DNA of 64,000 nucleotides from Iphinoe sp. HA4291-MV1 (lineage in GTDB: Bacteria > Cyanobacteriota > Cyanobacteriia > Cyanobacteriales > Nostocaceae): NCBI GenBank assembly GCA_019359415.1, contig JAHHHH010000010.1, positions 62,001 through 126,000 of the forward strand, in the 5' to 3' direction. The notes under the pieces were generated by a model. The model saw only the letters and a list, made by a program, of their open reading frames with translations. It was not told the DNA's origin and did no database searches. The position numbers were made by a program, and so were the translations under genes. How positions within the stretch are numbered: the first letter of the stretch is position 1; the number at the start of each line of letters is the position of its first letter. Of this stretch, positions 36,767-53,186 are shown in pieces.

Positions 36767-37414
36767 TTAATTGAGATTTATCATTGCACCTTTGATATTT
36801 GTTGTGGCTTTAGCTGTGATATCTATTCTGGTGTTTGCGTTGATGTTGGTGTTAGTTGAAGATTTGATATCTATTGTTTGAGCATCTAGTTTGATGGTGC
36901 CTTTGGGAGCAGATAGTGTAATATCTTTTGCTGATGTGATGGTAATTGTGTTTTGGGCGGTATCGAATTTGAGGCTGTTATTGTTGGTTTTGTCGATGAT
37001 TTCGATGGTTTCTTTGCCGTTTTCGTCATTTAAACGAATCACATGACCGCTGCGTGATTTTATCAGGCGGATGTTGTTTTTACCGTCGGCGTTAGTCTCT
37101 GGAGGTGTGTCTATACCATTCCATAAACCACCAATGATGTAGGGAAAACGCACGTCTCCTTGTTCAAATATGACTAGCACTTCGTCGTTGATTTCTGGTA
37201 GAAAATAAATGCCCTTTTGCTTTCCTGTCATTGGGGTGGCGATGCGTGCCCAGTTGCTTTCATCTGTGTCACTCAACCAGGGAAATTTGACTTTTACTCG
37301 TCCAAGTTTTTCGGGGTCTTGGTTGTTTGTAACAATGCCAACGACTACTCCGAAAATTCGGTCTTGCATTGTGTTTTGAGCATGGGTGTCAATCAGAATG
37401 TCCAAAAAATTCAC
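36767..37414 (-). CDS. gpV-like spike (baseplate assembly protein V)
   Basis: A 215-residue protein. The N-terminal OB fold is typical of gpV/VgrG spikes: RIFGVVVGIVTNNQDPEKLGRVKVKFPWLSDTD, then MTGKQKGIYFLPEINDEVLVIFEQGD. The C-terminal 90 residues are a beta-helix needle (SGHVIRLNDENGKETIEI; ITLSAPKGTIKLDAQTIDIKSS). It forms the central spike together with the phage-D hub and the PAAR tip. The GTG at 37414 is the listed start; the ATG at 37366 (MQDRIFGVV) is an alternative. Confidence 0.88.
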   Translation of the reverse strand: MNFLDILIDTHAQNTMQDRIFGVVVGIVTNNQDPEKLGRVKVKFPWLSDTDESNWARIATPMTGKQKGIYFLPEINDEVLVIFEQGDVRFPYIIGGLWNGIDTPPETNADGKNNIRLIKSRSGHVIRLNDENGKETIEIIDKTNNNSLKFDTAQNTITITSAKDITLSAPKGTIKLDAQTIDIKSSTNTNINANTRIDITAKATTNIKGAMINLN

Positions 37415-37476
37415 TTTGCTTTTTATCCTTTTTAAGAATTTTTAAAATTGTTAGTTGTTGGTTTTCTTAGTAACTA

Positions 37477-38580
37477 TTAGAAGGCATTCCTCCTGGCTGT
37501 AAAATGGGTATGGTAACCACCGCTACCGTTGTGGCTACCTCTGGCGTTGAAGCGATGACTGACTGAGGTAACATAGTACTGACCTCTGTACTGTTTACCG
37601 ATGCGATCGCCATCAATTTTGATGACTTTGCCTGCCCGTATATCGGTGCGTCCTTTACAGATTCCTTCGGCTGTCATTAGGGTTAGCACTCCGGAATTGA
37701 AGTTGGCTTTGGCAAGTTGATCGGCTTCTGCTTGGGTCATAATTGGGTGATAGCTTATCGCTCCTGTCGCATTACCGAAGGCGCTCTGACTAAGGGCTGC
37801 GCCACTGTTTTTTCCTCCCATTTTGGAAACTTCGCTTCCTGCGATCGCTTGTCCAAGGATTTTATCTTTTTTTTTGAAGTCCCACCCTCGCACGGTGGTT
37901 TGAGCAACTTGACCGCTGGCGGTGACGCGGGGGTAAAATTCTAGCAGGTCTTCTTTAAAAGTTAAGGTTAAAATTTCGGGCTTGGCATTGCCCACCGGGC
38001 GGAAAAACAGTGTTTTGTCTTCCACTACGACTTCATACTGAATCTGGCGGGCGCGGGTTTGCAAAAATTCCATGTCGGTTTGGTTTGCTTGCAGCACGTA
38101 ATCGTGAATCACTTTGCTGTCTGTCGTCTGGGGGGTTAAGCCTGTATCGCTTGCAATTCGTTGTGCAATTTGGCTGTCTTTGAGTTTGAGAAACGAGCGA
38201 GTTTTGCGTCCCCTTTGCAAGCGATGACGGCGATCGTAGCCCCGCACTGTTAAGCTGGGGGGATGGCTGAAGTGAAATTCTGGCTCTAGTGCGGTGATTT
38301 CGCCTACCATCAAAAGGTCTAATTTATCCTCGAAGTAACCAAGTTTGACTTTAACCTCTTTGCCGATCGCAAATTGTTGAGGCTCATCAATAAACTGAAT
38401 GTCAGTTCTAGGAAACTCGTCGTCTAATCCAGCAAATTCTAAAGTAAACATGCTGGGTAAATTCACGTCTTCATCAAGATAAACGCGCACTAGTTCCATT
38501 TCCGCCTCTTTAGACAAGGGCGAGCCGTTGATGCTGACGTTAAAACGTGGTAGATAAAGTTGGTCGTTGTCGGTTGACAT
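37477..38580 (-). CDS. Phage late control D / hub protein
   Basis: A 367-residue central hub protein (gp27/gpD, the N-terminal part of VgrG). Evidence: LYLPRFNVSINGSPLS start, DIQFIDEPQQFAIGKEVKVKLGY, FSHPPSLTVRGYDRRHRLQRG, SDTGLTPQ, TDMEFLQTRARQIQYEV and a C-terminal GRTDIRAGKVIKIDG...YYVTSVSHRF. The VgrG function is split into two genes here, hub and spike. Confidence 0.88.
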   Translation of the reverse strand: MSTDNDQLYLPRFNVSINGSPLSKEAEMELVRVYLDEDVNLPSMFTLEFAGLDDEFPRTDIQFIDEPQQFAIGKEVKVKLGYFEDKLDLLMVGEITALEPEFHFSHPPSLTVRGYDRRHRLQRGRKTRSFLKLKDSQIAQRIASDTGLTPQTTDSKVIHDYVLQANQTDMEFLQTRARQIQYEVVVEDKTLFFRPVGNAKPEILTLTFKEDLLEFYPRVTASGQVAQTTVRGWDFKKKDKILGQAIAGSEVSKMGGKNSGAALSQSAFGNATGAISYHPIMTQAEADQLAKANFNSGVLTLMTAEGICKGRTDIRAGKVIKIDGDRIGKQYRGQYYVTSVSHRFNARGSHNGSGGYHTHFTARRNAF

Positions 38581-38601: not shown

Positions 38602-39303
38602 TCATATTAGTTCTGGAATGCTTAAAAGTGTTCCAATATCTAGGTGACGCGGATCATCTAGGTGGTTGGCTTCTGCAATGATGCGCCAACGTTTCGGATC
38701 TCCGTAGAGTTGAGCTGCAATACTGCTCAAGGTATCACCACGTTTGACGATGTGGGTGGTGAGTTCTGGATCTGTCTGGCGTTGATCGTCTAATGGTTTT
38801 AAATATTCTCTAAAGGTGACACTCAATTTAGCCCGAACTGGAGTACCATCTCTTTTAAAGAGCGTGAAGGTTTGTGTGAGACTCGTGACGACTCCCTTAA
38901 AAGGAAAGTCGGAACCGCTTGGAGCATTCCCCCAAGTTACGAGACAGACTGGCGGCTTTTTGGTAGCTCGTTCGATGCGGGTGAGTGCGACAAGCTCGTT
39001 GGTTTTTTTGCGAACATCATCAATTTTTACACCATTAATCGGTTCGGTGACATCAAAGAAAAGTTCCGAAAAAGTCAGTTCACGGCTTGCACCACCACCA
39101 AATCTTAATGTCGGAGCATTCAGTAATTCTTCTGATTCAGTTTTCTCTCCAGTCGAATTGTTTGCCGTATTCCAAATAACTGTCTTTGTAATCGAATAGG
39201 AATTGGGATTGAAAGATACTTTAATTGGTTTGAGGGCAGATGGTGACTGTGGTGTTATTTCTAACTTTGCCACGCTTTGCGATGTCGCTCCTCCTAGTAC
39301 CAT
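38602..39303 (-). CDS. LysM-domain CIS tube-baseplate adaptor
   Basis: A 233-residue protein corresponding to Afp7-like components that join the inner tube to the hub. The N-terminal domain has the family pattern (PIKVSFNPNSYSITKTVIWN; LRFGGGASRELTFSELFFD; GVVTSLTQTFTLFKRDGTPVRA) and the C-terminal LysM is complete (HIVKRGDTLSSIAAQLYGDP; LDIGTLLSIPEL). Its start overlaps the upstream 835-residue gene by 10 bp, suggesting coupling. Confidence 0.87.
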   Translation of the reverse strand: MVLGGATSQSVAKLEITPQSPSALKPIKVSFNPNSYSITKTVIWNTANNSTGEKTESEELLNAPTLRFGGGASRELTFSELFFDVTEPINGVKIDDVRKKTNELVALTRIERATKKPPVCLVTWGNAPSGSDFPFKGVVTSLTQTFTLFKRDGTPVRAKLSVTFREYLKPLDDQRQTDPELTTHIVKRGDTLSSIAAQLYGDPKRWRIIAEANHLDDPRHLDIGTLLSIPELI

Positions 39304-41801
39304 AAGTTCATCCCCCGACGCTCATGTTCAATGGTTAACTGACGATAAAGAATGCGGCTCACTTGTTCGGCAATCTTTGCCACGTTGACTTCACTGGCGA
39401 CTTTTGTTGTTTGTGCTGTTGACTCAGTACTTGCAGACATGGTGTTTCCCATCTCTGCGGCTGCGTCATCGGTAGGGTTTGATGTGGATAAAGTTTGACG
39501 GGCAATTTGTCGTCCCTGAACACTCATTGGACTGATTGCGCTCGTCTTTCCAGTCTGAGTGCTGTTATTGCTGACATTAGAAAACAAGTTTTCCCTTGAG
39601 CCTGTGCTAGCACTTTTACGCCAGATCATGTTCTGTTGTCCCACAGAGTTTACAGCTACAGGAATTTCTGGGGCGATTGCCGAAGGCATTGCGCTCTGCG
39701 CCATCGCCCTTTGGGCAGCTCCCTTGGGGAGCATCGCCATAACAGAAGTCTTCAAATCTCTCTGTTTCCATGTCCCTATGTCCTCACGTCCTGTTTGTTG
39801 TGTCGTTATTCCTCTCGTTAAGCTGACACTCTCAGCAGAACTTCTAAAAGCTTGGGAATCAGGTATACCTGGTTTGTATAAAGAACTAAGATTTTCAGAA
39901 TGACTGGTATTTTCAGAAATGCGTTTGGGTAAAATCAAAGATTGAGAAAGCGCCTGGTTTCTACCTTCTTCTGATGCAATCTCTGGAGCTATAGCCGGTT
40001 CAAAATCAGGAGTTGGAATTGCTTGAGAGATATTTTGATTGTCATCAGATGTTACTTTCATCCCTGCTTCTGGTGAATAACTGGAATTTTCCGAATTGTG
40101 AGTTTTTTCATCAATGGGTTTTGCCAAAATCAGGTTTGGCTCTGACTGTAGAGATTGATAGATTGATGCAATTTCTAGAGCGACTAGTGATTGGTTTTGA
40201 ATTGTATTATCCTGTTGGGTTAAATTTCCTCTAGATGAGTGTTCAATGTTTGTAGTTGATGTATGACTAGAATGAAAAGAACCGCTTTGATCAGCTTGTG
40301 AAGTTTCTCGTTGGCTGAGTTTGGGTAGAATCAAAGATTGAGAAAGCGCCTGGTTTCTACTTTCTTCTGATGCAATCTCTGGAGCTGTAGCTGGTTCAAA
40401 ATCAGGAGTTGGAATTACTTGAGAGATATTTTGATTGTCATCAGATGTTACTTTGATTTCTGGTTCTGGTAAAACACTGGGATTTTCCGAATTGTGAGTC
40501 TTTTCATCAATGAGTTTTGCTAAAATCAGGTTTGGCTCAGGTTGTGGTGATTGATAGATTGATGCAATTTCTGGAGCGACTAGTGATTGGTTTTGAGTTG
40601 TATTATCCTGTGGGGTGAAATTTCCTCTAGATGAGTGTTCAATGTTTGTAGTTGATGCCTGACTAGAATGAAAAGAACCGCTTTGATCAGCTTGTGAAGT
40701 TTCTCGTTGGCTGAGTTTGGGTAAAATCAAAGATTGAGAAAGCGCCTGGTTTCTACTTTCTTCTGATGCAATATCTGGAGCTGTAGCCGGTTCAAAATGA
40801 GTTGGAATTACTTGAGAGATATTTTGATTGTCATCAGATGTTACTTTCATCCCTGCTTCTGGTAAAACACTGGATTTTTCCGAATTGTTAGTATTTTCAT
40901 CAATAGGTTTTGCCAAAATCATGTTTGGCTCCGACTGTGGAGATTGATGTATTGATGCAATTTCTGGAGTGACTAGTGATTTGTTTGGAGTAATAGCATC
41001 AGGGTATTTTGCAACATTCTGTTGATCTGAATCTTTTTTCAAAAATGACTGTTCACTTTCAGTTTTTGATGAAATGCTAACATCTACATAATTGTTAGCA
41101 GAAATTTGCGATTTTTCATTTTCATCTATTATGCTGCGTTTTGGCAAAATCAAAGATTGCCCAGGCTGTTGAGATTGATCTAAAGTAGATGCAATTTCCC
41201 CAGCTACAGGTGGTTGATTTGAGGGTTCCGTGGGTGAGGAGATTTCCTGAGTATCATGACGATTTGCTGGAGTACTCGCAGGGGATAACGAACCTGACTC
41301 AGTTGGGGATGAATTGCTCGCATCCACTTTGGCTAAGGGAATTGCCTTGCGGCTAACCGGAAATTTGCCCTCAGAATGAGAATCGGAAGTATTGGCTGGC
41401 GTAACGGGTTTGGCGTAGACGGGAGGCGACGCATCACGAGACATCGCTAAAGAAGATGGTGCTGCTGTTTGATTTGCTGTCTGATTTGCTGTTTGATTTC
41501 CTATTTGATCTATTGTTTGATATACAGTTGGTAAACTTAAAGTTGGTTGCCTAGGAACTGGTTGGGATGATACAGCAAGTACTAGGTCTTCCTCCTGTGC
41601 TGAGGCATTTTCTTGGCTGTAGCGTCTTTGTAATTGGTCCAGCAATCTAGAACGCTGCACCATCCACCCTGGTACACGGGCAAACTGAGAGTCAAATGGG
41701 CGCACGTCAACCACTCCGGAAGGTTCGGTGCGACGGCGTTGGAGACGCTGCATCAGTGTGGCAGAGTGTTCGGTCACAGGTTGTTTTGATGAATCTGTCA
41801 T
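39294..41801 (-). CDS. Long repeat-rich hydrophilic protein of the injection system
   Basis: An 835-residue protein, mostly Ser/Gln/Asn/Pro-rich and probably disordered. The ends look more conserved: N-terminal VRPFDSQFARVPGWMVQRS and C-terminal VAKIAEQVSRILYRQLTIE followed by HERRGMNLWY. The middle has 132-residue repeats (SLILPKLSQRETSQADQSG; EPNLILAK; VTSDDNQNISQ) at about 39920-41000. It lies between the second tube gene and the LysM gene. No other gene here looks like a tape measure, so this is the best candidate for a length-setting or connector protein, although it lacks the hydrophobic and coiled-coil look of classical tape measures. Confidence 0.55.
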   Translation of the reverse strand: MTDSSKQPVTEHSATLMQRLQRRRTEPSGVVDVRPFDSQFARVPGWMVQRSRLLDQLQRRYSQENASAQEEDLVLAVSSQPVPRQPTLSLPTVYQTIDQIGNQTANQTANQTAAPSSLAMSRDASPPVYAKPVTPANTSDSHSEGKFPVSRKAIPLAKVDASNSSPTESGSLSPASTPANRHDTQEISSPTEPSNQPPVAGEIASTLDQSQQPGQSLILPKRSIIDENEKSQISANNYVDVSISSKTESEQSFLKKDSDQQNVAKYPDAITPNKSLVTPEIASIHQSPQSEPNMILAKPIDENTNNSEKSSVLPEAGMKVTSDDNQNISQVIPTHFEPATAPDIASEESRNQALSQSLILPKLSQRETSQADQSGSFHSSQASTTNIEHSSRGNFTPQDNTTQNQSLVAPEIASIYQSPQPEPNLILAKLIDEKTHNSENPSVLPEPEIKVTSDDNQNISQVIPTPDFEPATAPEIASEESRNQALSQSLILPKLSQRETSQADQSGSFHSSHTSTTNIEHSSRGNLTQQDNTIQNQSLVALEIASIYQSLQSEPNLILAKPIDEKTHNSENSSYSPEAGMKVTSDDNQNISQAIPTPDFEPAIAPEIASEEGRNQALSQSLILPKRISENTSHSENLSSLYKPGIPDSQAFRSSAESVSLTRGITTQQTGREDIGTWKQRDLKTSVMAMLPKGAAQRAMAQSAMPSAIAPEIPVAVNSVGQQNMIWRKSASTGSRENLFSNVSNNSTQTGKTSAISPMSVQGRQIARQTLSTSNPTDDAAAEMGNTMSASTESTAQTTKVASEVNVAKIAEQVSRILYRQLTIEHERRGMNLWY
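39920..41000. repeat. Intragenic repeats of about 396 bp
   Basis: The motif CGCTTTGATCAGCTTGTGAA occurs near 40281 and again near 40677, 396 bp apart, with long nearly identical surroundings. Partial units extend on both sides. The repeats encode 132-residue units of the long hydrophilic protein. Confidence 0.8.
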
Positions 41802-41817: not shown

Positions 41818-42300
41818 TCAGCTCAGCCCTTTGTGAGCAAGTTCCACACTCTCAAAGGCAACGTTTCCAGAATCTGCCTTGAGTTCTGGTCCCGTCCACT
41901 TGTAGGGGAAAGCATCTTTAAAGTTCCAATACTTCATCGGAATTTTTTGCTGGTTTAACAAGTAAATGGTGCCGTTTCGACGTTTAAACTTGCCTGTGTC
42001 AATTGCTTTGCTCACCTCTTGATGCCATTTCCACAGACCATCAATAAAGGTAAGCCCGTGTTTGAGGATAAGTGGTTGATATTTGGTTGGACCGATAAAG
42101 CGGTGTACGTATTCATTCACGCCCCCTTCACGGTAATCATAGTATTCAGTTTCCACTTGCAAACCGCTGCACTCAGAGAAGCCTCCCACCAAAATGCCTT
42201 CAATTTCAATCAAGAAATTAAAAGCTCCAAAAGGATCTAAAGAAACACCTGCGGCACTCGTGGCGGCGGTAAAGGCAGTATTCACGCCCACAGAAGGCAT
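41818..42300 (-). CDS. Inner tube protein, copy 2
   Basis: A 160-residue phage tail tube-like protein (Afp1/Afp5, Hcp-like fold). Signatures: LDPFGAFNFLIEIEGILVGGFSECSGLQVETEYYDYREGG, YVHRFIGPTKYQPLILKHG and PYKWTGPELKADSGNVAFESVELAHKG. It lies downstream of the assembly protein and next to the 835-residue protein, so it may be the baseplate-proximal tube subunit. AAGGAG precedes the ATG. Confidence 0.9.
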   Translation of the reverse strand: MPSVGVNTAFTAATSAAGVSLDPFGAFNFLIEIEGILVGGFSECSGLQVETEYYDYREGGVNEYVHRFIGPTKYQPLILKHGLTFIDGLWKWHQEVSKAIDTGKFKRRNGTIYLLNQQKIPMKYWNFKDAFPYKWTGPELKADSGNVAFESVELAHKGLS

Positions 42301-42331: not shown

Positions 42332-42493
42332 TTAAACTTGTTCGTTAAAGCGTTGATTGATATCAGCAATCTCTCCAACCCAGCGTAAGCGTTCTGTATG
42401 TTCCAGCGCTAGGATATGTTCGTGCGACCAGTGGAAGTGATAAGCAATATAGGCTACCTCCTTATACAGCCGCTCCAAGGGGTAGCCGCTTAT
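42332..42493 (-). CDS. DUF6760-like extension reached by -1 frameshift
   Basis: A 53-codon open frame, ISGYPLERLYKEVAYIAYHF onward to TERLRWVGEIADINQRFNEQ, ending at TAA 42332-42334. It matches the small DUF6760-type protein I know from CIS loci. It has no ATG or GTG start: in frame, a TAG lies four codons upstream and only ATA or an internal TTG is available. It lies exactly in the -1 frame of the preceding gene and begins at that gene's slippery GGGGGGA. I infer it is made as a C-terminal extension of the tail assembly protein. Confidence 0.75.
   Translation of the reverse strand: MSGYPLERLYKEVAYIAYHFHWSHEHILALEHTERLRWVGEIADINQRFNEQV
42452..42487 (-). promoter_or_regulatory. Frameshift-stimulating hairpin
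   Basis: On the minus strand GGCTACC (42487-42481) pairs with GGTAGCC (42458-42452), and the adjoining CCTT pairs with AAGG across one bulged A. The result is an 11-bp stem with a 13-nt loop. It begins 5 nt after the slippery heptamer, in the spacing range of known -1 frameshift stimulators. Confidence 0.7.
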
Positions 42494-42852
42494 CCCCCCG
42501 CGCTACTGAGTTCCACATCAAACTGTTTCTCACAGTAGGGGCATTGGGTACGCACCCGGTCGTGTCCATTTTGATTGATGCGACAGTAGAGGTCTTGCAA
42601 ATACCCCAAATCGCCTGCAAACAAACCCTCAATGACTTTAGGGTTGATGTGCTCAAGCGTACCGAGTTTAGTGATAACTCGTGAGAGCAAAATCATCAGC
42701 AAATATGCCTGATTGCTACGCACGCGCGGATCTTTGAGTGGGGCAATTTCATCTAGAGCGGTTGCTAAACGCATGACACCTTCTCGATGCAGATTACCGT
42801 CGGCATCAACATAGCCCATTGGTAAAGTGAAGGAAAATTCGGTCTGTAGCAT
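42490..42852 (-). CDS. Phage tail assembly protein (chaperone-like), zero frame
   Basis: A 120-residue protein from the ATG at 42852 (MLQTEFSFTLPMGYVDADGN); a longer start at 42882 adds ten non-typical residues. The family pattern includes HREGVMRLATALDEIAPLKD, QAYLLMILLSRVITKLG and a C-terminal CPYCEKQFDVE with a zinc-knuckle look. It lies between the two tube genes, as tail assembly proteins do. Its last codons GCG GGG GGA TAA contain a perfect X XXY YYZ slippery site (42499-42493), giving an alternative longer product that continues through 42332. Confidence 0.82.
   Translation of the reverse strand: MLQTEFSFTLPMGYVDADGNLHREGVMRLATALDEIAPLKDPRVRSNQAYLLMILLSRVITKLGTLEHINPKVIEGLFAGDLGYLQDLYCRINQNGHDRVRTQCPYCEKQFDVELSSAGG
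42493..42499 (-). promoter_or_regulatory. Slippery heptamer G GGG GGA
   Basis: On the minus strand, zero-frame codons read GCG GGG GGA TAA. The heptamer G-GGG-GGA fits X XXY YYZ exactly and is immediately before the stop codon. Slippage by -1 leads into the 53-codon extension without meeting a stop. Confidence 0.75.
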
Positions 42853-42918: not shown

Positions 42919-43716
42919 TCATGATGTGCTGCACTTTGGACCTGGCTGTTCTTCCACCAAGTCTGCAAACGTCTCATACCAAGGGGGTAACTCAATATGA
43001 GTTGCGCCCGTCGTTGCGTAATTTGACGAGTAGTACCAGAAGCCGCCAAGACTCTGGAAGGTTTTCCTACGATTTAGGGCTTCCTTCGCGTCGGACGCTG
43101 CTTGCTTTGCCGGATCGCCCTGAACCGCCAGCCAACGCCAGGACGCAATGCTCGGATCGGATGGAAGCTTCTGGTTATATTGGTTTTCCACACTGACGAT
43201 ATCGGCATAATCAAACACTGAACTAGGGGGCGACGCAATACCTGGATTGACGAGCACTAGTTTCGATTTTCCAAATGTTCGGACTTTCTGAGCACGCTCG
43301 GTATTCCAGGATATCTTTGTCGGGTCGGTTTCGTCGAAGAAGACGCCATCATAACCTGCATTCATCGCCTGAGTGATTTTGGCATCAACAACATCGCTTG
43401 GTTCGTTACCAGAATTCAGCCGGATATACTGAATCGCCCGTCCATGACTCTGATGCACATAGCTAGGGATGTCGCTACGACCCTCAAGAGTGTCGCCAAA
43501 GATGATAAAGTTCGGCTGTTTGCTCGTGATGGTCTTCAAAATCGAATCTTCTGAAGCAGGGTTACTAATAGATCCGTAGTAAAGCACGAACAGTCCGTTG
43601 CCATCAGGACAGCTTCCACTGTATGCATAGGCAGAAGCCGGCTGCCATATCATCATAATCCCAAGAATGAGGGCAGTGACAAAAGCAACTAATGGCAGCA
43701 GTGTACGTGTTTTCAT
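42919..43716 (-). CDS. Exported spherulin-4/GH135-like protein
   Basis: A 265-residue protein with a clear N-terminal signal peptide (LLPLVAFVTALILGIMMIW, cleavage probably after ASA near residue 30). The rest resembles spherulation-specific family 4/GH135 and GH114-type TIM barrels: GLFVLYYGSISNP, NFIIFGD, AMNAGYDGVFFDE with acidic residues at a strand end, and KLVLVNPGIASPP. Members hydrolyse galactosamine-containing polysaccharide in fungi; activity here is unproven. It interrupts the order tube, assembly protein and tube, and lies beside a MITE. It could be an acquired gene or a CIS-associated wall-active protein. Confidence 0.6.
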   Translation of the reverse strand: MKTRTLLPLVAFVTALILGIMMIWQPASAYAYSGSCPDGNGLFVLYYGSISNPASEDSILKTITSKQPNFIIFGDTLEGRSDIPSYVHQSHGRAIQYIRLNSGNEPSDVVDAKITQAMNAGYDGVFFDETDPTKISWNTERAQKVRTFGKSKLVLVNPGIASPPSSVFDYADIVSVENQYNQKLPSDPSIASWRWLAVQGDPAKQAASDAKEALNRRKTFQSLGGFWYYSSNYATTGATHIELPPWYETFADLVEEQPGPKCSTS

Positions 43717-43761: not shown

Positions 43762-43957
43762 ATTAGGACTTACGCACGCTCACAAATTGACCATCATATG
43801 CATCAACGGATAATAATCGTTTCAGGCTTGTAGGGGTGCAAGGCCTTGCGCCTCTACGGTGGGTAATAATAGTTTCATGCGTTAAAAAATCAAACGTTGA
43901 GGCGCTAAAAATGCCTACTGCATATCTGACGTTTTCTGTCAATGCGTAAGTCCTAAT
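43762..43957. mobile_element. MITE-like element with 15-bp terminal inverted repeats
   Basis: A 196-bp element with perfect ends ATTAGGACTTACGCA (43762-43776) and TGCGTAAGTCCTAAT (43943-43957). It encodes no protein and carries internally a 28-bp near-palindrome (43830-43857). Ends of this type (AGGACTTACGCA) are common on non-autonomous elements in cyanobacteria. It lies upstream of the spherulin-like gene and downstream of tube copy 1. Confidence 0.75.
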
Positions 43958-44009
43958 AATGAGCAGCAATTGCATCTTAGGAAATGAACCAGATTCGAGC
44001 GGCTGTTGA

Positions 44010-44429
44010 CTAACCTTTGACGACTTCCTCATGGACTATTTCCAAGGTTTCAATAGCGACTTCGTTACTGGTAGAGTTAAACGTGGGACCTGTCCACTTG
44101 GAGGGCCATGCCTTCCGCAGATTCCAGCGCAATTTCTCCTCTTGGGCTTCGTTGTACAAGACGACTGACACGTTTTTACGTTCAGTTTTGCCATCAATCA
44201 CCTTTTGCCGCCATTGCCAAAGTTTATCAGAGTCGGTAATGCCGCGTTTGAGTGTGATGGGTGCATATTTGTTCAATCCGGTGAGTTGACGCACGTGATT
44301 CGGGTCAGTACCTTCCCGGTATTCTACTGGATCGGTAGTAGCATCCAGACCGCTGCATTCCTGGAAGCCTGCTTCGCTGATGCCATCAATTTCAACTTTA
44401 AAATTAAAGCCACGATACGGATCAGGCAT
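44010..44429 (-). CDS. Inner tube protein, copy 1
   Basis: A 139-residue tube subunit: DPYRGFNFKVEIDGISEAGFQECSGLD, YREGTDPNHVRQLTGLNKYAPITLKRG and WPSKWTGPTFNSTSNEVAIETLEIVHEE. It follows the sheath gene, so it is probably the main inner-tube protein. It shares the fold and spacing of copy 2 but with clear divergence. AAGGAG lies 8 nt before the ATG. Confidence 0.92.
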   Translation of the reverse strand: MPDPYRGFNFKVEIDGISEAGFQECSGLDATTDPVEYREGTDPNHVRQLTGLNKYAPITLKRGITDSDKLWQWRQKVIDGKTERKNVSVVLYNEAQEEKLRWNLRKAWPSKWTGPTFNSTSNEVAIETLEIVHEEVVKG

Positions 44430-48874: not shown

Positions 48875-49213
48875 TCACGAAATAGCAAATTCTGTATGTT
48901 TTCGTTCTTCGAGTGATTTGAAGCTCAAGACGATATGGTCTTTGGGAATTCCAGCAGCAACTAGCTCACCTGCGATGCCTTCTTCTGTACCATCATGCTG
49001 AATCCAGAGCATGTTATTAATAATATCAATGTGCAATAAAGTTCCGTAGATGCGATAACCATTTTGCCAGCCAGTTTCTACTAAAAGGTAGCGATCGCGC
49101 TGTTGATCAAACACCAATTCGACTTGAACCTGGTCATCATTACCGAGAAAGTCAGCATAGTCCTTGAGGATTTTTTCAACAACATCACGATACTTGGTAG
49201 TCAGTGAATCCAT
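48875..49213 (-). CDS. xisI: XisI family protein, copy 2
   Basis: A 112-residue protein matching XisI, one of the fdxN-element excision controlling factors: YRDVVEKILKDYADF, DQQRDRYLLVETGWQ, HIDIINNMLWIQHDGTEEGIAGELVAAGIPKDHIVLSFKSLEERKHTEFA. It overlaps xisH by 13 bp. XisH/XisI pairs are widespread in cyanobacteria, and their molecular function is not settled. Confidence 0.92.
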   Translation of the reverse strand: MDSLTTKYRDVVEKILKDYADFLGNDDQVQVELVFDQQRDRYLLVETGWQNGYRIYGTLLHIDIINNMLWIQHDGTEEGIAGELVAAGIPKDHIVLSFKSLEERKHTEFAIS

Positions 49214-49620
49214 TGAACGATCGCCTCCTTTGTGGGATCGAAGGTAACTAAACGAATAACGCCATCTTCAATTAAGGTCTGACCTGCTTCTTCTTCAAAG
49301 ACTCTTTTTCGGGTGTCTTCATTTACTGCCAGATACAGTGTATAGTCAGGATAGTAACGTTTCAACAAGCGAGCGTACAGAACGAACTGACCGACGGCTT
49401 CTTCCAGGTCTTTCATATCTGAAGGACGGGTGAAACTCTTGACCTCAATTGCTATCTTTTCGGTTAAGCGTTCGGCTGCTAGCAACTGCTCTGCACCTAA
49501 ATCCACAAACAGGTTTCTTCCACGAGCTAGACGAATCCGCAATGGGTCATGGGTGATTGTCCAGCCATCTTTAATGAGAGCGTTTTTAACCGTGTCGTGA
49601 TAGATGTCTTTGGCAGGCAT
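49201..49620 (-). CDS. xisH: XisH family protein, copy 2
   Basis: A 139-residue XisH protein: MPAKDIYHDTVKNALIKDGW, DPLRIRL, FVDLGAEQLLAAERLTEKIAIEVKSF with an ExK motif like that of PD-(D/E)XK nucleases, and FVLYARLLKRYYPDYTLYLAV. The upstream Asp in FVDLGAE could complete the motif. It was named for its need, with XisI and the recombinase XisF, in fdxN element excision in Anabaena. Here it lies downstream of the DUF4157 gene. Confidence 0.92.
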   Translation of the reverse strand: MPAKDIYHDTVKNALIKDGWTITHDPLRIRLARGRNLFVDLGAEQLLAAERLTEKIAIEVKSFTRPSDMKDLEEAVGQFVLYARLLKRYYPDYTLYLAVNEDTRKRVFEEEAGQTLIEDGVIRLVTFDPTKEAIVQWIH

Positions 49621-52446: not shown

Positions 52447-52782
52447 TCACTCTACAGCGTAAGAAGTAAATTGACGTTTAAACGGGGAATAAAAACCGAT
52501 AACTATATCTGAGGAAGGTATACCTAACTCAACTAACGTCTCGGCAATAAGTTCTTCTGTACCATTATATTGAATCCATATCTTTCCATTTTGGATATCA
52601 AAATGCATTATGGGGCCAAATACTCGCTTGTCACCCTGCCAACCTACATAAGCTAGTTGATAGTGGTCGTTTTCATTGTCAAAGATTAGTTCTGGCTTAA
52701 TAGTATCGGTATTAGAGCTGATTTGTGCATGTTCTGTTAAGATTTGTTTGATGATTTGTCGATAGCGTTCTATTTTATCCAT
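52447..52782 (-). CDS. xisI: XisI family protein, copy 1
   Basis: A 111-residue XisI homologue: MDKIERYRQIIKQILTEHAQ, DNENDHYQLAYVGWQGDKRVFG, HFDIQNGKIWIQYNGTEELIAETLVELGIPSSDIVIGFYSPFKR. It shares the family pattern with copy 2 but is well diverged in sequence. It overlaps xisH copy 1 by 13 bp, exactly as in the other pair. Confidence 0.92.
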   Translation of the reverse strand: MDKIERYRQIIKQILTEHAQISSNTDTIKPELIFDNENDHYQLAYVGWQGDKRVFGPIMHFDIQNGKIWIQYNGTEELIAETLVELGIPSSDIVIGFYSPFKRQFTSYAVE

Positions 52783-53186
52783 TGCCGAATCTCCTCGTTT
52801 TTGGGATCGTAAGTTACTAATTTAACTTGGTGACGTTGAAGCGTGCGTTGGACAAAAGCAAGTTGGAAAAAATCTAAGTAGGTTTCATGTGGAACTGCTA
52901 AGTAGACAATTCGGTCGGGTTCATTTTCCTCCAACGCTTGACAGTAATTAAGGTATTGACCAAGGGCTGTGTGAAATTCATTGATATCAGAACCTGCAAT
53001 AAAACTTTTAATTTCAACCGCGATTTTTTCGGTATCGCGTTCTGCTGCGAGCGCACTTTCTGCTGCTAAATCTATTTGTACTTTAACTGCATCACTAATA
53101 CGAATATATAAAGGATAATTGGTAATTCTCCACCCATCTTTGATTAAGGCATTTTTTACCTGTTGATGGAAAACATCTTTAGCCAT
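52770..53186 (-). CDS. xisH: XisH family protein, copy 1
   Basis: A 138-residue XisH homologue: AKDVFHQQVKNALIKDGWRI, VQIDLAAESALAAERDTEKIAVEIKSF (IDLAAE plus ExK, as in PD-(D/E)XK folds), LGQYLNYCQALEENEPDRIVYLAV, and VKLVTYDPKNEEIRQWI. It lies 197 bp downstream of the AAA+ ATPase gene and upstream of the DUF4157 gene. The two XisH copies are similar but not recent duplicates. Confidence 0.92.
   Translation of the reverse strand: MAKDVFHQQVKNALIKDGWRITNYPLYIRISDAVKVQIDLAAESALAAERDTEKIAVEIKSFIAGSDINEFHTALGQYLNYCQALEENEPDRIVYLAVPHETYLDFFQLAFVQRTLQRHQVKLVTYDPKNEEIRQWIK

Follow-up and report, generated by a model that had tools for sequence, protein, structure and literature searches.

In phage lambda, as would be the case in the locus described below, ribosomes that slip by −1 shortly before a small tail gene ends make a minor, C-terminally extended form of its product, and the two proteins, gpG and gpGT, have a chaperone role in tube polymerisation (relevant passages of PMC5009743). 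In the phage data of the PRFect paper, all of about a thousand “fivetwo” motifs are GGGGGAA, with a G:U re-pairing logic given in the relevant passages that is the same as the one used below, and the terms “contractile” and “injection” are absent from the main text (PMC10885494). Recoding in a non-viral contractile machine is on record for the type VI secretion gene tssM of Citrobacter, in the form of transcriptional frameshifting (PMC4256274). Our literature search, with preprints and most subscription papers outside its scope, found no report of a tail-chaperone frameshift in contractile injection systems and no mention of “DUF6760”; no such frameshift is described in the relevant passages of PMC8718954, PMC8528098, PMC9022992, PMC13222765 and PMC10269795, and the word “frameshift” is absent from the main text of the injection-system papers PMC8213781, PMC10066040, PMC8894135, PMC11566945, PMC10598620, PMC12237407 and PMC12998442. 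Streptomyces coelicolor particles are uniform in length, and the study describing them reports the cluster to be without a gene for a tape measure (relevant passages of PMC12237407), nor is one reported in the corresponding passages of a Streptomyces and a haloarchaeal study (PMC10066040, PMC11566945).

The window, the whole 64,000-nucleotide stretch of Iphinoe sp. HA4291-MV1 DNA that we analysed, carries on its minus strand a contractile injection system gene cluster, recognised by Pfam and profile matches. It encodes two sheath proteins, two gp19-type tube proteins, a CIS tube/LysM protein, a hub, base V, PAAR, gp25, baseplate J and Pvc16 proteins, an AAA ATPase and a protein with the eCIS core domain. 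Sheath, tube, baseplate, Pvc16, AAA ATPase and eCIS core thus stand together as in an extracellular contractile injection system, and a Pfam scan of 27 ORF translations found no capsid family. The gene of interest, “G,” lies downstream of the first tube gene (44010–44429, minus strand; PF06841, 3.6e-52), from which two ORFs (43763–44032 and 42919–43716) separate it, while the second tube gene (41818–42300, minus strand; PF06841, 7.6e-38) is the next gene 3′ of DUF6760. The ORF at 42919–43716 (minus strand) is Spherulin4-like. Elsewhere on the same strand, the VgrG-like spike (36767–38580) is divided into two genes, a hub GPD part and a base V part, which match consecutive parts of one VgrG-related model, and two XisH–XisI pairs lie within the locus (48875–49620 and 52447–53186).

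G (42490–42852, minus strand) encodes a protein of 120 residues, MLQTEF…SSAGG, matching phrog_508, and its reading frame ends GCG GGG GGA TAA. Within this end, G GGG GGA (42493–42499, minus strand) forms a slippery heptamer that fits the X XXY YYZ register, and nearly all relatives have a slippery site, often of other letters, at the same place. The zero-frame stop TAA (42490–42492, minus strand) follows directly on the 3′ side. Five nucleotides after the heptamer (spacer 42492–42488) begins a stem-loop of 11 bp with a bulge (42452–42487, minus strand), whose arms are GGCTACCCC...GGAGGTAGCC. A stretch of 53 codons plus a stop is open in the −1 frame (42332–42493, minus strand) and matches DUF6760 (PF20546, 1e-18), so that a slip would give a predicted G-T fusion of 173 residues with the junction peptide QFDVELSSAGGISGYPLER. 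A TAG in the −1 frame (42505–42503) stands one codon ahead of the heptamer, no ATG, GTG or TTG precedes the conserved domain, and in the DUF6760 frame such a codon occurs only once, as TTG at 42478, where it encodes Leu in the conserved YPL motif; the extension is startless, in the −1 frame and joined to G at a slippery site. The initial annotation had described each of these parts: its heptamer and adjoining stop are exact to the base, its bulged stem is placed exactly and forms the core of the RNAfold minimum-energy structure, its 53-codon DUF6760-like frame is confirmed by the Pfam match, and the missing ATG or GTG start and the in-frame stop just upstream were both seen.

Relatives were collected from two directions. 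G was present in 25 of 60 genomes, its own included, and from a scan for G across many phyla the best 80 of 89 confirmed loci were used. In the G-searched loci, some of them repeats, DUF6760 lies behind G in 107 of 110, in the −1 frame every time (107/107); the three without a DUF6760 match are L072, which has a truncated T, and L087 and L089, in which a short ORF with the candidate-ruler motif discussed below takes its place. A second search began from DUF6760 rather than G, to avoid a bias toward G, and gave the same picture, with matches in 28 of the 292 genomes searched from the window's phylum, in 138 of 249 from the Streptomyces family (133 over the cut-off), in 6 of 349 from the Caballeronia phylum, of which 3 exceed the cut-off, in 15 of 246 from a haloarchaeal phylum and in 12 of 291 from a clostridial class. 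In the 30 loci of the window's phylum, G is always adjacent, and 29 of them have the −1 frame (in L115 G itself is broken, and its last piece was counted as G); 72 further loci comprise 68 in −1, one in frame 0 and three weak matches without G, junctions of the Streptomyces family having been examined in 30 loci out of that family's matches. Retaining T matches at E ≤ 1e-8, which dropped L184, L185 and L186 (weak matches, no G nearby), and merging identical junctions left 185 distinct DUF6760 junctions. G is directly upstream in all 185 and the −1 relation holds in 183, the exceptions being accounted for in L134 by a disrupted frame within G and in L211 by the missing start of T. The −1 junctions with a slippery site span at least 11 named phyla. 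The arrangement is not confined to cyanobacteria, the multi-phylum scans having found it in other bacteria and in archaea.

An in-frame slippery site is present at the end of G in 181 of the 183 −1 junctions, as against 6, 23, 25 and 11 of 183 when the search was shifted 60, 120, 180 and 240 nt upstream, which is more than chance would give. The two junctions with no listed site are L028, which has no start, and L200, which has an ATG and GGGGAAA; DUF6760 with a start of its own and no slippery site, the finding that would have spoken against the initial annotation, is thus rare among these junctions. By class, the 181 sites are five Gs and an A (127), six or seven Gs (23), AAATTTT (18), GGGAAAN (7), TTTTTTN (5) and one other, the CCCGGGA of L188 having been chosen by the script where the following codon yields GGGAAAT as well, the site found in the relatives of that locus. 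The archaeal loci L187–L191 and L215 have the lambda-like GGGAAAN at the same junction. The heptamer letters vary between lineages while the −1 relation is constant; the fewest class changes on a tree of G (175 rows, C-terminal region left out) number 14, a figure weakly supported because many forks of the tree are unresolved and its columns are few, and starred branches force fewer. The strict heptamer claimed for the window is there, but most relatives have five Gs (GGGGGAA or GGGGGAG, 127 of 183), and GGGGGAR is not strictly X XXY YYZ because a middle G:U pair is needed in the A site. Through such a pair tRNA-Glu can re-pair with GGA.

The stem in the window is not striking against dinucleotide shuffles (z −1.57, 18 of 200 folding as well). 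A second comparison set the folding energy of the 45 nt behind the site against 200 resamplings of the DUF6760 frame with synonymous codons at local usage; here the window stem does stand out (z −3.83), in a control that is coarse because codon use was drawn, with a pseudocount, solely from G and the remainder of T in the same locus. Over all junctions this control gives a mean z of −3.15, and 10 resamplings or fewer fold as well in 146 of 181. The signal is found in 74 of 76 GGGGGAA, 46 of 51 GGGGGAG, 15 of 15 GGGGGGG and 5 of 8 GGGGGGA sites; outside the G runs it is weak or absent (6 of 18 AAATTTT sites, and none of 13 T-run, GGGAAA and CCCGGGA sites together). In 107 distinct stems picked by their GCTA 5′ arm, a choice that favours pairing, the six core pairs are formed in 99.2% of 642 cells, compared with 79.8% when the partner is slid to −3 and 17–46% at other slides. 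Unselected G-run junctions are paired in 85.4% of 792 cells, compared with 71.5% at −3 and 19–47% at the other slides (the motif anchor is absent in 3 of the 181 junctions of the pair count). Alternative arms also pair, ACGTACGCG with CGCGTACGT in Streptomyces L086 and GCTATC with GATAGC in L128. Among the 107 GCTA stems, 101 have GTA as the Val codon of the 3′ arm, as against 17% GTA in the same ORFs, and in loci above 58% GC the stem Val is GTA in 20 of 23 cases and the other Val codons in only 4 of 247. Such a bias points to selection on the RNA and not on the protein, and for the stem behind G-run sites to selection beyond the demands of the protein.

Judging from these comparisons of sequence, programmed −1 frameshifting, producing G and G-T as a chaperone pair, is very probably the best explanation of the junction. 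A separate DUF6760 protein could instead arise by termination-coupled reinitiation: the G run would then serve as a ribosome binding site, and translation would restart near the stop, at an ATG or GTG or at a non-standard codon. Of the 181 junctions, 49 do have an ATG or GTG after the site and ahead of the domain, about half of these from the Streptomyces family and some archaeal; in 26 Streptomyces-family loci a GTG overlaps the stop, GGGGGAATCGTGA spanning the overlapping stop and start, and the G run might there bind the ribosome, and Haloferax larsenii (L215) has an ATGA overlap start at the junction. Annotations also list DUF6760 as a separate gene; in a RefSeq-derived plasmid table, which shows no incomplete-gene flags, it begins at ATA in Nostoc plasmid pn3 and at a TTG inside the conserved domain in Rhodococcus pWB1. 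The other 132 junctions, however, have no ATG, GTG or TTG between site and domain, so that the claim of a startless DUF6760 stands for these, and in the 49 separate initiation or dual use may occur; in the window, moreover, a stop lies just upstream. Sites such as AAATTTT, TTTTTTT and GGGAAAT do not resemble ribosome binding sites and yet are slippery, and selection on the stem behind G-run sites, beyond the protein, also speaks against reinitiation, which we hold to be improbable.

Slippage could also take place at transcription, a mixed mRNA pool then making the extension. Runs of five to seven Gs or six to seven Ts form 155 of the 181 sites, and tssM of Citrobacter offers a precedent in a type VI secretion system (PMC4256274). 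However, AAATTTT and GGGAAAN contain no such runs, and the downstream stem would be needless. Transcriptional slippage usually needs runs longer than five to seven, and we judge it very improbable here. Finally, two overlapping frames, the second without a start, are what a frameshift mutation or an assembly error would leave of one split gene, with nothing programmed about it. This is already refuted by the conservation of the arrangement, found in 183 of 185 distinct junctions and at least 11 named phyla; the nearest named relatives, L031 and L032 (G 92% and 91% identical), share the window's heptamer, and the next, L033 (90%), has GGGGGAA, leaving an error with practically no chance.

The case for programmed frameshifting is strengthened by the likeness of both halves to phage proteins: G and DUF6760 appear, from profiles, to be remote relatives of proteins with recorded frameshifts, Mu gp41 and P2 E′. 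All 49 aligned G relatives match the tail assembly chaperone family phrog_508 (E ≤ 0.01), which also includes phage Mu gp41 and to which G can thus be assigned. Among five AlphaFold models of G (best mean pLDDT 82.8, the rest 64.8–70.9), the model is closest to YqbN and the HK97 tail assembly chaperone, with middling Z. DUF6760 aligns with the P2 E′ extension (phrog_1756/6416/10636; hhalign 82%, P 1e-5), and 6, 3 and 14 of 42 DUF6760 members weakly match these three families (hmmscan, E ≤ 0.1, best 0.00068). With tblastn, neither G nor DUF6760 matched any of 50,697 phage records, so the phage link is one of profiles, and the G and T profiles gave nothing relevant among PDB sequences. The suggestion made at the outset, that this injection system uses the G/GT device of phages with a DUF6760-type protein as the T-like extension, thus gains support from the conserved junction, with its −1 relation in 183 of 185, and from the profile likeness of the two halves, P2 E′ included. 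Several loci of L011–L030 have tandem G genes, the first copy matching only about residues 1–95 and lacking the C-terminal CxxC part; DUF6760 lies behind the second copy in the loci where the two were found together.

In the mechanism we propose, most ribosomes would read G to its TAA and give the 120-residue tail assembly chaperone, while a minority, held by the stem, would slip back by one base on G GGG GGA, enter the DUF6760 frame and give the 173-residue G-T. G would then bind a ruler protein, as lambda gpG does, and G-T would recruit tube subunits, as lambda gpGT does, leading to a tube of set length. We infer the frameshift and its efficiency, and the roles of the two proteins in assembly by analogy with the phage relatives.

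A candidate for the ruler, or tape measure, is the product of 39294–41801 (minus strand), an 835-residue, Ser/Gln-rich protein with internal repeats and a shared C-terminal motif, its last ~28 residues recurring at the ends of ORFs behind G-T in other loci. An ORF with this motif was found in 27 of 85 sources (profile, E ≤ 0.05), with lengths of 238–835 residues except for a 62-residue mini-ORF in L087, and in 8 of 73 later loci, of which three repeat earlier sources (L213, L142 and L145) and some have E of about 0.02–0.03. These ORFs are of low complexity and lie behind G-T or behind the second tube gene. In Streptomyces clavuligerus, which also carries the G and DUF6760 pair, a Pro-rich open frame of 1,383 codons stands between DUF6760 and the second tube gene; it ends in a similar motif by eye only, the profile having reported none. 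L087 and L089 are Chloroflexota, and their ORF after G is a mini-protein with only the C-terminal motif of the ruler (in L089 by eye). The product of 39294–41801 may, from its sequence features, be an overlooked tape measure. That systems said to lack a tape measure carry a complete phage-type length-control module, consisting of G, G-T and, close behind, a low-complexity ruler of variable length that only its conserved C-terminal motif gives away, is a tentative proposal that we consider possible but somewhat doubtful. Should these readings be true, the classic recoding of phage tails would extend to the non-viral injection machines of bacteria and archaea, DUF6760 would gain a function and its gene a corrected annotation in many genomes, and length control in such systems could be tested directly through the hidden chaperone and ruler module.

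The slippery site of lambda is GGGAAAG, whereas the sites described here are mostly five to seven Gs with a conserved stem and belong to a non-viral machine. Mu gp41 is, like G, a phrog_508 member placed after sheath and tube genes, and its frameshift is verified; the Mu record, however, gives a −2 shift as opposed to −1 here, and the Mu extension, unlike that of the window, has no DUF6760 match and no resemblance to it. In P2, E/E+E′ involves a −1 shift as here, the E′ part appears from profiles to resemble DUF6760, and E is flanked by the tube gene and by one noted as a putative length determinator, but unlike G it belongs to PHROGs 103 and 166. The “fivetwo” motif of SEA-PHAGES, GGGGGAA, is the majority slippery motif of our junctions, theirs being found in phage genomes (relevant passages of PMC10885494). 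With tssM of the type VI secretion system the present case shares recoding in a non-viral contractile system, but tssM encodes a membrane-complex component and is recoded at transcription (PMC4256274).
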